Virus record (IMG/VR): IMGVR_UViG_3300009149_000217
Coordinates: 1 to 27,606 of that record
DNA length: 27,606 nucleotides
Source of the DNA: a virus
Direction: 5' to 3' (one strand)
A program made the position numbers and the translations under genes. This document shows positions 3,378-23,135 of the stretch, one piece after another; position 1 is the stretch's first letter; each line of letters starts with the position of its first letter. The notes beneath the pieces were generated by a model. The model worked only from the letters and a program-made list of their open reading frames with translations. It had not been told where the DNA came from and did no database searches.

Positions 3378-4196
3378 TTATACGGCTTTTGCGATGCCGG
3401 AATCGACGGCCACTACACCGCAGGCGGTGCCGATGGCGTAGGTTCGCTGGGCGATGATTGACACGTCGTTGATCGACGTTCCTGGGCGAGTCGTCCCGTT
3501 GAGAGTTTCGACTGCTCCCCGGTGCGTCTTCCACGGGCCAGTGCCGTAGATCGTCGCAGGCGAGGTGCCGGTCAGCGGTGCGGTGGCCGTGATGGCGACC
3601 TTCGACCCGAGCTGCGTTTTCATGACGCCACCGAAAGGCTTCAGAGCGCCGTTGGATATCAGTAGCGAGCCGAGCCAAGTGTTCATAAACAAGATGCGCT
3701 CGTTGTTCGTAATCTGCGCTGTAGCTTCCTCGGCGGTGGCGAGACAAACCAACGCCAATTCGCTGCTGCTGGAATGGGCGGCACCAGGCGGTTTACCTGC
3801 GATTGGTACGTCAGTTTTGTTGGCGATTAGATTCGCCATCAGGTACTGCTCGAAGCCCCACTGCTCGGCTGCGAGAAGGCGAGCCGTAGCGTTGGCTTCG
3901 TGCTCGGCCATCGTCCGGCTGCCCGCACCAATCGAATCAGTGTCGTACGTGTAAACAGCGAACGGGTCGGCGTAGCCCTGCGTGTTGCAGCCTGAGGCGG
4001 TCAGCGGATCGACCGAAGGATCTACGCAAGCGTTGTATGTGACACCGCTCTGGAAACAGGCGGTCGTATCCCATGTCATTCCGAGGCCAGCGTGCTCGCC
4101 GTAGTCCTCAAAGTCGAAGACGCTCAAGCCGCCAAAAGCCCGGGGTGCCGAGACCGGTGCGGTGGTCACGTCGTAGATATCTGGTACTCCAGCCAT
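3378..4196 (-). CDS. Virion structural protein next to capsid (minor capsid or pentamer candidate)
   Basis: This 272-residue protein begins MAGVPDIYDVTTAPVSAPRAF with an AGAGG ribosome binding site. Its middle part has a helical stretch (EHEANATARLLAAEQWGFEQYL). A beta-rich C-terminal half follows. It comes directly after the major capsid gene, separated by a strong hairpin. Actinophages often carry a second capsid-related gene here, sometimes annotated as a minor or pentameric capsid protein. That identity is from memory of the layout, not from a motif. It has no signal peptide or membrane segment. Confidence 0.5.
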   Translation of the reverse strand: MAGVPDIYDVTTAPVSAPRAFGGLSVFDFEDYGEHAGLGMTWDTTACFQSGVTYNACVDPSVDPLTASGCNTQGYADPFAVYTYDTDSIGAGSRTMAEHEANATARLLAAEQWGFEQYLMANLIANKTDVPIAGKPPGAAHSSSSELALVCLATAEEATAQITNNERILFMNTWLGSLLISNGALKPFGGVMKTQLGSKVAITATAPLTGTSPATIYGTGPWKTHRGAVETLNGTTRPGTSINDVSIIAQRTYAIGTACGVVAVDSGIAKAV

Positions 4197-5890: not shown

Positions 5891-5934
5891 GAGGATCTGC
5901 CTTTCAGGCGGTGGGGAAATGATCGTCATGTGCC

Positions 5935-5972
5935 CGGGTCAGACCCGTATCACGTCGCTCGGGTTATACCCG
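5935..5972 (-). promoter_or_regulatory. Twin short hairpins in the capsid mRNA leader
   Basis: The region 5891-6199 between the capsid start and the ncRNA terminator holds no convincing gene. Within it are two CGGGTnnnACCCG hairpins, at 5935-5947 and 5960-5972, with identical 5-bp stems and different three-base loops (CTG and ATA on the minus strand). They begin about 45 bases upstream of the capsid start codon. A weak TTGCAA/TACGAT promoter-like pair lies further upstream, near 5995-6030. The hairpins might bind protein or stabilise the leader; that is speculation. Confidence 0.35.
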
Positions 5973-6199
5973 TGGGCGACTTCAGCTGTGATCGTAGTAC
6001 ATCCTTCAGCTTTATTGCAACAATTAACTTTGGAGCTTGGCTAATTGTGGCCTGTGTGGGCCTGTACGGGCCTCGATCGTCATCTCGGGGCGTCGGGGGC
6101 GGGATCTCCTGTGCGGCGTCGAGCGGTGTACTTGCTCCGGGCCTTGAGGGCAGCGACGGCGTAGACGGCCCTATCTGACCGGGGTCGAGTCCAGACAGC

Positions 6200-6230
6200 A
6201 AAAGACCCCAGGCCGCTAAGCCTGGGGTCT
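6200..6230 (-). terminator. Terminator-like hairpin at the ncRNA 3' end
   Basis: AGACCCCAGGC (6220-6230 on the template side) and GCCTGGGGTCT form a perfect 11-bp stem with a six-base loop. A short U-run follows at 6200-6203. The U-run is only four bases long, so read-through into the capsid gene is possible. That could matter, because no strong separate capsid promoter is visible. Confidence 0.7.
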
Positions 6231-6623
6231 GTTACTCACATCCTGAGAAACGAGCAGTGCGCCTGCCGATACTTACCAAGATTCTCTGTTCCCTTTGACC
6301 CATGCATAGGCGGGGCAGCTAGTTCCACTTGGCTTTTTCGACGTTCTTCCGAATTCACTCGGCTACTGCGATCCTCTCGTTCATCCTTCGTTCAGGGGTC
6401 GCCGTGCTTAAGGTGTAATTCTGCGGGCCGTCTCAAGTGTCGAAAGTGGACTCCCACAACTTAATGTCGGGTGACTCACATCTTCTTGAAGCAGTTTGCT
6501 GATTCCTTAGCCCGGTCGTGGTCGTTAACCGTCAGGGATGAATGCAGGTCGCTCACCGGTACTTTTTCGGGGCGCTTGCTTGCTTCTCAGTTTTCAATGT
6601 GCGTGTCACGGATGTTCGGCGAC
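6200..6623 (-). ncRNA. Candidate structured non-coding RNA of about 424 nt
   Basis: A cassette-type promoter (-10 box at 6631-6636) points into a long stretch with no good ORF on its strand, ending in an 11-bp GC-rich hairpin at 6203-6230. By analogy with the leaderless copies, transcription should start at 6623. The RNA would begin GTCGCCG, which can pair with GCGAC (6548-6552) or over seven bases with CGGCGAC (6398-6404). Other possible pairings are CTGAGAA (6584-6590) with TTCTCAG (6243-6249), and an H-type pseudoknot: CCAAG 6328-6332 with CTTGG 6276-6280, and CTGCC 6314-6318 with GGCAG 6263-6267. The nonamer GATGTGAGT occurs at 6474-6482 and 6234-6242. The size and phage setting recall large ornate phage RNAs such as ROOL or GOLLD, but no family match can be claimed. 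Confidence 0.65.
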
Positions 6624-6630
6624 AAAGATC

Positions 6631-6690
6631 ACTATAGGGCACCACCCACCGGTTGTCAACGTTTATCTCAGATATTTTTGAGAAAGTTTG
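6631..6690 (-). promoter_or_regulatory. Promoter of the ncRNA (cassette type)
   Basis: TTGACA at 6654-6659, a 17-bp spacer, and TATAGT at 6631-6636. Upstream lies the TATCTGAGATA dyad, preceded by an A-rich run, as in the copy at 18362-18416. Unlike the other copies no ATG occurs seven bases after the -10 box; the base at that place is the G at 6623 that would open the ncRNA. Confidence 0.75.
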
Positions 6691-6691
6691 T

Positions 6692-6799
6692 TCAGAGGGT
6701 TTCGACTACGCCACCGATGGCATCCGCATACCGTTGAGCAGCAGGCAACGACGTGAACCGACGGCCCGTAAACAGACCATCCTTCAACACTTGGTGCAT
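6692..6799 (-). CDS. Possible 35-residue protein
   Basis: An ATG at 6797-6799 opens a 35-codon frame (MHQVLKDGLFTGRRFTSLPA onward) ending at a TGA at 6692-6694. The stop is within ten bases of the A-rich end of the ncRNA promoter, the same stop-then-promoter layout seen at proven-looking genes. The predicted peptide has a globular composition with a helix ending YADAIGGVVETL. No strong ribosome binding site precedes it, and the function is unknown. The 84 bases between this start and the protease stop hold nothing else I can name. Confidence 0.45.
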   Translation of the reverse strand: MHQVLKDGLFTGRRFTSLPAAQRYADAIGGVVETL

Positions 6800-6883
6800 T
6801 ACAGACGTGGCTGAAGACAACGCCCGTTCAGGAGAGAGAGACCGCACGGGCCGCATCGTTATCTTCCCGCCTCAAGCCATAGC

Positions 6884-8305
6884 TCACTCACCCCTGACAG
6901 CGGCGGCCAGAGCGGCACGACGTTGAGAGGGATGGCGGCCGATACCGAACGCAACAATGTCACGCTCGGCCTGTACCTGTTCGTGAGTTCGGCCAATCGA
7001 CGCTGCGATTCTGTCAGCGACTCGCTGCACGGCGGGGTCGAGATCGGAGACGCAGACAGGGACGGCGGCAATCATTGCCATCATCTCGCCCGAGGCGTAC
7101 ACCGTTTTCACGAAGCCTGGCACGGGAACAGTGCGAATCGAGATCAGTTCCAACGACCCGTTGAGCCGACGCCAGTCGCCAGACACGTCGTGAGACATCA
7201 GCTTCCTGATTCTCAAGTCGTCCAAGCCTGGCATGATCGAACCTGCAACCCAGATGCCGAAAGCGTCTTCGCCGATGGTGACATCAGCGGCAGTCCAACC
7301 TGTTTCGTCGTAATGCTGTTTCGCTGCCTGCGCCGAAGCGCTCTCGTTTGCATGGCCCCCATCGACGGTGATGTGCCCGACACGGGCGACGCTTCCATCA
7401 TCGCAACGGATCTCGCCCGTCAGGAAGTGGGCGTAATCGCCTGTCCTGTTTCGTGGCGGCGGCACGCACCTGTCGGCAAACCCACGGTGACAGGACTTCC
7501 ACAACGCTATGTGACCGAACAGGCGGCCCGTAGAGAGCACTGTGATCGGGGTCGGGACGGTAAGGGCGGGAGGAGCGAACCAGGCCGCAGGCGGCACTGC
7601 GGGAGCAGCAAGCGAAACTTTCTGCGTTTGCTCGGTGTCGATCGTGGCAGCGCCAGCGACCAAAGATGCAGCGAGTTGCTGCGCTTCCTGGAAGGCCGGG
7701 AACGGGACAGCCGTTGCGCCCATGATGCGGGCAGACGTGATGACCATTCTTTCTGTTTCCAATGGAACGATCATGTCGCCGTTCTCGTCCGGCAACATCG
7801 CTTCGGAGGCGGTGACCACAATGTGGCCCTCGACCATATCCATATCAACCGACACGCCTTTGAGATCGCCATCTTCGATCAGCTTCTGAAGCCGTTGAAC
7901 TTTTTTGTCCGACGAGTTGAGCATTGTCGTGTACCCGTAAATCTTGTCGCCCTCACGTTCGATGCGGATCAGGTTCGCAACAAACTTGGCACCATCATGC
8001 CCGTGGCCCGTCTCATCGGTCGCCATCAGCGGAAGCGGCAAATCTCGCCACGTCAGCGCATCCTGTTCGATGGTCCGACCATCGCCCGTTGGCACACCTT
8101 CCTGGACGAGCAGCCAGCGGGTTTCGTCGCTGCTCGAACCAATGTCGTCGTCGTCGCCGATCGGTACGTCGTCAACTTCCTCATCGGGGTCAACCTCAAT
8201 GACGTCTTCAACGATGACCGGCAAGCCTGTGTCGTCGTCAATTCCATCGCCGTTGTCGTCAGCGAACGTAGCCGTTTGTCGATCTGGTGCTAGTTGCAAC
8301 CTCAT
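6884..8305 (-). CDS. Prohead protease / capsid maturation protein, two-domain
   Basis: This is a 473-residue protein. After an acidic, Asp-rich start (about residues 15-60, with DDNGDGIDDD and GDDDDIG), residues about 62-215 look like a herpesvirus/HK97-type serine protease. They have a candidate catalytic His in DETGHGH and a candidate Ser in LKGVSVDMD. After an Ala/Pro linker, residues about 270-410 look like a second related domain (VGHITVDGGH, then RKLMSHDVSGDWR and LELISIRTVPVPGF), common in actinophage capsid maturation proteins. It is expected to trim the capsid delta region. Either half could be the active one; the other may have a scaffold role. It lies upstream of the capsid gene, with the ncRNA between them. 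Confidence 0.65.
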   Translation of the reverse strand: MRLQLAPDRQTATFADDNGDGIDDDTGLPVIVEDVIEVDPDEEVDDVPIGDDDDIGSSSDETRWLLVQEGVPTGDGRTIEQDALTWRDLPLPLMATDETGHGHDGAKFVANLIRIEREGDKIYGYTTMLNSSDKKVQRLQKLIEDGDLKGVSVDMDMVEGHIVVTASEAMLPDENGDMIVPLETERMVITSARIMGATAVPFPAFQEAQQLAASLVAGAATIDTEQTQKVSLAAPAVPPAAWFAPPALTVPTPITVLSTGRLFGHIALWKSCHRGFADRCVPPPRNRTGDYAHFLTGEIRCDDGSVARVGHITVDGGHANESASAQAAKQHYDETGWTAADVTIGEDAFGIWVAGSIMPGLDDLRIRKLMSHDVSGDWRRLNGSLELISIRTVPVPGFVKTVYASGEMMAMIAAVPVCVSDLDPAVQRVADRIAASIGRTHEQVQAERDIVAFGIGRHPSQRRAALAAAVRGE

Positions 8306-23080: not shown

Positions 23081-23135
23081 AACTTCAACTTTAGTGGTCG
23101 AGGTTGCCGATGTCAACGTCGGGCCTAGATTTATT
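23081..23135 (-). promoter_or_regulatory. Leaderless promoter cassette, copy F
   Basis: TTGACA at 23111-23116, 17-bp spacer, TAAAGT at 23088-23093, TGAAGTT, ATG. The dyad region reads AATCTAGGCCC, so only the left half is kept. The TAA-to-ATG gap is exactly 55 nt. Confidence 0.82.

Follow-up and report, generated by a model that had tools for sequence, protein, structure and literature searches.

The minus strand of a viral contig from IMG/VR encodes, at 6200-6623, a structured non-coding RNA, as judged by comparative sequence analysis, and this RNA belongs to a new family of phage RNAs that very probably dimerise through a palindromic kissing loop. The contig (IMGVR_UViG_3300009149_000217, positions 1-27,606, henceforth the window) was analysed over its full 27,606 nt. 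Its structural genes are assigned to phage families of actinobacteria, and the closest capsid relatives that carry phage names, at ~35% identity, have mainly Microbacterium and Streptomyces as hosts.

The RNA gene is predicted to be a transcription unit of its own, delimited by the following elements:

6654-6659, minus strand: -35 box, TTGACA
6631-6636, minus strand: -10 box, TATAGT, separated from the -35 box by a 17-nt spacer
6200-6623, minus strand: non-coding RNA gene, with a predicted start at the G at 6623, placed by the spacing of the cassette promoters
6203-6230, minus strand: intrinsic terminator, a 12-bp stem followed by a T run, TTT(T)

The sigma-70-type promoter (TTGACA-17-TATAGT, minus strand, 6659-6631) has 11 of 12 matches to the consensus and is the sole site in 5900-6900, where 0.4 would be expected by chance. 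As the initial annotation had it, this promoter feeds about 424 nt devoid of a plausible ORF, the longest one on the RNA's own strand within 6200-6623 having 40 codons' worth of protein (40 aa) and a GTG start. The closing GC hairpin that it described as 11 bp is a terminator, with a stem that we measure at 12 bp. Its observation that other copies of the promoter place the A of an ATG at the eighth base past the -10 box also stands, for six copies by strict consensus rather than the seven it counted; at the RNA gene this base is the G at 6623. These six near-identical cassettes lie on the minus strand of the window, with -35 boxes at 23116, 18397, 17008, 16341, 10605, and 9390 and the layout TTGACA-(16/17)-TATAGT/TAAAGT-TGAAGTTATGAGC. 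Because the ATG falls at the expected transcription start, the layout suggests that the cassette genes give rise to leaderless mRNAs. Ahead of the capsid start, at ~5930-5990 on the minus strand, the window carries hairpin-like repeats (CGGGTATAACCCG and GGGTCTGACCC), and hairpin-like repeats (ACCGGTATGACCGGT) are also found upstream of the capsid gene in the relatives L003-L006; they are possibly a conserved 5' UTR element.

The family was opened by a BLAST search of the window RNA against phages, which returned a single 24-nt exact match, located in a part of the Mycobacterium phage ScoobyDoobyDoo genome that carries no annotation. A homologous RNA also lies ~3 kb upstream of the capsid gene in L003, whose capsid is 78% identical to that of the window, and BLAST aligns the two RNAs in four matching blocks (best E 1e-14). 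Two motifs are nearly invariant in the family:

6515-6535, minus strand: motif M1, CUGACGGYUAACGAYCACG
6387-6401, minus strand: motif M2, CGAYCCCUGAAYGAA

Among 31 members, 17 of 20 columns of M1 are invariant. The 20-mer CUGACGGYUAACGACCACGA occurs exactly in 29 viral contigs, and a looser word in 38; with L197 rejected as a chance match to the looser word, 37 homologues and the window make up the set. A stricter search with the M2 pattern yielded no further members. The exact M1 word had no match among the genomes of 84,980 species of bacteria and archaea. In GenBank, 194 records carry the RNA, all of them mycobacteriophages of the cluster C type, belonging to the genera Bixzunavirus and Myrnavirus among the records inspected. 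Many mycobacteriophage genomes have the RNA masked by small predicted proteins or leave it unannotated; in L049, for example, gp62 and gp63 of LRRHood are annotated over it (6141-6245 and 6285-6674). These small overlapping proteins of cluster C mycobacteriophages are probably spurious.

Membership of the window does not hinge on its own contribution to the models. The window is recovered in two blocks, with E about 1e-8 (hits of E 1.3e-8 and 4e-8), by a profile from which it was withheld, and equally when L003, L018, L023, and L034 are withheld as well. The covariance model gives 92 bits at 6573-6342 for the window, which is part of its training set, and 85 bits (E 3e-19) for L196, which lies outside the model-building set and has the same hairpin. 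The window RNA combines a core recognised by model and profile, the invariant motifs, the palindromic-loop hairpin, and the closing helix.

None of the Rfam 15 covariance models, run on the window, L003, and 14 relatives both with the gathering threshold and with E relaxed to 10, matched the window RNA or its relatives; the matches obtained were chance ones, plus tmRNA and tRNA elsewhere in the loci. By this covariance-model test the RNA constitutes a new family of structured phage RNAs, from which GOLLD, ROOL, and OLE are excluded. The initial annotation had raised the prospect of a new class, with which the scan of all Rfam families agrees, and had drawn a comparison with GOLLD and ROOL, membership in which is unsupported down to E 10. 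OLE membership was rejected on the same grounds, for the window and its relatives. We found no report of the RNA in the open-access literature, which most subscription journals lie outside.

The consensus fold comprises a long closing helix (P1), three internal helices (P2-P4), and a variable arm, which map onto the window as follows:

6572-6601, minus strand: P1, 5' strand, by folding
6237-6262, minus strand: P1, 3' strand, by folding
6566-6569, minus strand: P2, 5' strand, CGAA, partner 6350-6353
6350-6353, minus strand: P2, 3' strand, UUCG
6556-6560, minus strand: P3, 5' strand, ACCGG, partner 6357-6362 (alignment A2 columns 15-19/144-149)
6357-6362, minus strand: P3, 3' strand, within the conserved CGAGUGAA
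6536-6542, minus strand: P4, 5' strand, UUCAUCC, partner 6380-6386
6380-6386, minus strand: P4, 3' strand, GGAUGAA
6404-6514, minus strand: variable domain carried on a stem that covaries, its length ranging from 14 to 113 nt among members

The initial annotation had proposed looking for covariation among homologues, and it is present. In alignment A2, which holds 31 distinct members with the variable arm trimmed, 23 of the 30 consensus pairs show double-sided changes and 90.6% of cells are paired. These changes include four of four pairs in P2 (columns 6-9/153-156) and seven of seven in P4 (columns 43-49/101-110). Covariation scored 0.578, compared with 0.161 ± 0.013 for shuffled partners and 0.068-0.094 for slid partners. 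In a tree-aware simulation (FastTree, parsimony counts, independent columns, 300 nulls), in which invariant pairs are uninformative, 33 pairs were tested and 17 of them outscored every null, among them the three pairs of the hairpin loop described below. The folding energy has a z of -3.8 with the terminator and -2.9 without it; the comparative evidence far outweighs it.

Duplex folding predicts P1 for all members, with a length of 20-30 bp in most of them, the predictions for L015, L025, and L046 being weaker or containing misplaced stretches. The 5'-3' pairing of 6584-6590 with 6243-6249 that had been noticed earlier proves real and falls within this conserved helix, and the repeated nonamer (GATGTGAGT) is likewise there, at 6482-6474 and 6242-6234. 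A further pairing had been proposed between GTCGCCG, the first bases of the transcript, and 6398-6404. The complement exists as described, but we regard a functional pairing as coincidence, because the target lies in the invariant GCGAYCCCUGAAYGAA and the 5' leader is unconserved. In L024, L015, L028, and L046, pairing of the P2-P3 joiner with the 3' joiner into a pseudoknot seems possible by eye; as a family-wide element it was rejected.

Within P1 we also found a resemblance to rRNA leaders:

6586-6599, minus strand: boxA-like element CATTGAAAACTGAG, inside the P1 5' strand

The pattern AAC[TC][CGT][AT][AG] occurs in or near the P1 5' strand in 19 of 32 members, against 0.029 by chance, and the resemblance was not found in the other 13 of the 32. 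Mycobacterial rRNA leaders carry a similar UUUGAGAACUCAAUAGUGUG ~180 nt before 16S rRNA, a distance taken from the loci with a recognisable 16S start (25 of 81 matches). Like the rRNA leader-trailer helix with its boxA (a concept described in PMC10250234), the phage RNA has a long end-joining helix whose 5' strand includes a boxA-like element, which may suggest that it shares Nus antitermination and leader-trailer processing with rRNA. It differs in containing no rRNA sequence or mimicry: match or complementarity of M1 and M2 to mycobacterial rRNA was no greater than for shuffled motifs, and at this level we rejected rRNA mimicry or antisense action.

The strongest constraint on how the RNA might work comes from a hairpin on the 3' side:

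6298-6311, minus strand: putative kissing-loop hairpin GCCUAUGCAUGGGU, with the loop AUGCAU at 6302-6307

Its consensus is CCGG-GGAG-[6 nt]-CGAA-CCGG, and the 6-nt loop is self-complementary, strictly so in 29 of 31 members and in all 31 when G-U is allowed (the other two have one G-U pair); self-complementary 6-mers make up 1.2% of the background. Eight loop sequences occur: UGCGCA, UGGCCA, GUGCAC, UUGCAA, AUGCAU, GUGCAU, CUGCAG, and UCCGGA. In alignment A4, which is restricted to 25 members alignable without gaps and leaves out the divergent five, the hairpin is 98% paired and the loop pairs are GC13/CG12; GC18/UA6/CG1; and UA21/GU2/CG1/GC1. The six loop columns changed 8, 6, 8, 8, 6, and 8 times by parsimony, and L042 and L044, alike elsewhere, have the loops UGGCCA and UCCGGA. 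The central adjacent letters are GC in 13 members of A4 and CG in 12. Because adjacent letters covary yet cannot pair within one chain, the constraint on the loop must be intermolecular; moreover, the loop 6-mer occurs only once per RNA in 29 of 31 members (the exceptions being L017 and L020), and thus an intramolecular partner is no explanation. The loop stays palindromic through changes of adjacent letters, as expected of a homo-oligomer formed via a symmetric kissing loop, and such covariation has served as an argument for homomeric contacts in OLE and GOLLD (PMC12286853). We conclude that the RNA very probably dimerises through this loop.

For the five divergent members, which include the window, the loop was chosen for being palindromic and compared afterwards, and palindromic 6-mers are not rare in a stretch of about 100 nt. 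The window loop rests on the homology-anchored alignment with L003: the window hairpin is homologous to CCCGUGCACGGG of L003 in a BLAST alignment that runs across the hairpin, and the two loops, AUGCAU and GUGCAC, differ by a compensatory change.

Self-association raises the question of whether assembly is itself the function. GOLLD is likewise a phage- or prophage-borne large structured RNA in which adjacent-letter covariation backs a symmetric kissing loop, and ROOL, phage-borne and ornate, forms homo-oligomers (PMC12286853); OLE, too, is a dimer. For the phage RNA such association is predicted from its sequence. A GOLLD- or ROOL-like particle or cage made only of RNA, working through its assembly and not through binding of a host factor, would fit an RNA that is phage-encoded and has a long closing helix, a conserved symmetric kissing loop like those of OLE and GOLLD and, in some members, a location by tRNA or tmRNA genes, as is often so for ROOL and GOLLD. 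A second palindromic hairpin, UCAUGA (GGGGAGUCAUGACCC or close; GUCAUGAC), is present in L007, L017, L020, and L021 only, the members of the ScoobyDoobyDoo/Myrna/Phabba kind, and could allow chains or larger assemblies in this group. For most members, however, only one conserved symmetric contact was found, and tRNA genes are absent within about 10 kb. The P1-to-P1 span, about 265-410 nt across members, compares with 659 nt for ROOL env-120, making the RNA about half the length of ROOL or less, and with more than 800 nt for many GOLLD RNAs. GOLLD also has hallmarks of its own, a universally conserved 3' region and a 14-mer cage, and is matched by a model that does not recognise the phage RNA; OLE, equally without a model match here, is bacterial and about 600 nt long. 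On balance, we consider an RNA cage unlikely.

The genomic surroundings of the RNA bear on the remaining alternatives. In the relatives the RNA lies near unrelated genes and on either strand, its neighbours being variously a helicase loader, a metallophosphoesterase, a tail protein, an endolysin, a replication initiator, a head morphogenesis gene, or a terminase. Of 23 regions, only a few have genes for tRNA or tmRNA close to it, with mostly none within about 10 kb, and association with tRNA islands was therefore rejected as a general feature. Phage tmRNA genes lie downstream on the same strand in L015 (10221-10616) and L028 (284-609), and just downstream of the RNA in L008 (~4080-4140) there is a T-arm-like GGGGTTCGAACCCC that ARAGORN does not call as a tRNA.

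The initial annotation had thought a role in head assembly or packaging plausible from the position of the RNA before the capsid gene. The window copy does lie between the protease and capsid genes, the L003 copy is in the same module, and that of L189 is near a terminase gene; the pRNA of phi29 likewise uses intermolecular loops. In pRNA, however, the two loops that pair are complementary but different, and the RNA is part of the packaging motor, whereas here one loop is predicted to pair with itself and the link to head genes is unconserved. Capsid family and RNA also dissociate in both directions: the window capsid family is missing in 15 of 19 RNA-bearing records tested, and the RNA was not found in G002 (29 kb) or in the 156-kb phage contig G003 (IMGVR_UViG_3300027848_000009, L006), both with a capsid 78% identical to that of the window. 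Given the varied neighbours and this dissociation, a phi29 pRNA-like function in packaging or head assembly is very unlikely and action in trans is likely.

We give still less credence to a Y-RNA-like partnership with a Ro (TROVE) protein of the phage. Pairing between 5' and 3' ends is a feature of Y RNAs too, and TROVE proteins are encoded in six of 28 records searched, only by cluster C-type phages; the other 22, which include RNA-bearing contigs of 113-150 kb, had no TROVE match. A role in cis for the capsid gene, as its leader or as an element of its 5' UTR, suggested by the position of the window RNA directly upstream on the same strand, can hardly be upheld in view of the strong terminator between the two and is excluded as a general explanation by the unrelated neighbours on either strand in relatives.

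We therefore favour, with fair though not full confidence, a free-standing RNA gene acting in trans, whose product would form a kissing dimer that presents its invariant motifs to a host component. The argument for action in trans draws on the gene's own promoter and terminator and on its differing neighbours. P1 closes the ends of the RNA, and P2-P4 with the variable arm present the two nearly invariant motifs of 15-20 nt. Two copies would then join by the symmetric kissing loop, so that the working form is probably at least a dimer. The boxA-like element in P1 might help transcription of the untranslated RNA to resist Rho, and P1 might be processed like the leader-trailer helix of rRNA. As further commitments of this model, the dimer would show the motifs to a host component conserved across actinobacteria, either a protein or a ribonucleoprotein, and would sequester or redirect it during lytic growth.

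A broader proposal, which we put forward tentatively and as somewhat short of an even prospect, is that the family constitutes a new RNA class spread across unrelated actinobacteriophages, in which the loop dimer captures a conserved host machine via the motifs in infected cells and Myrna-like members form longer assemblies through the second palindromic hairpin. Only a handful of natural homo-oligomeric RNAs are known, and the ornate ones from phages have no known function. The family described here offers strong evolutionary evidence for self-association in a compact RNA, and its carriers include cultured Mycobacterium smegmatis phages, for which gene deletion, pull-down, and structural studies are standard practice.
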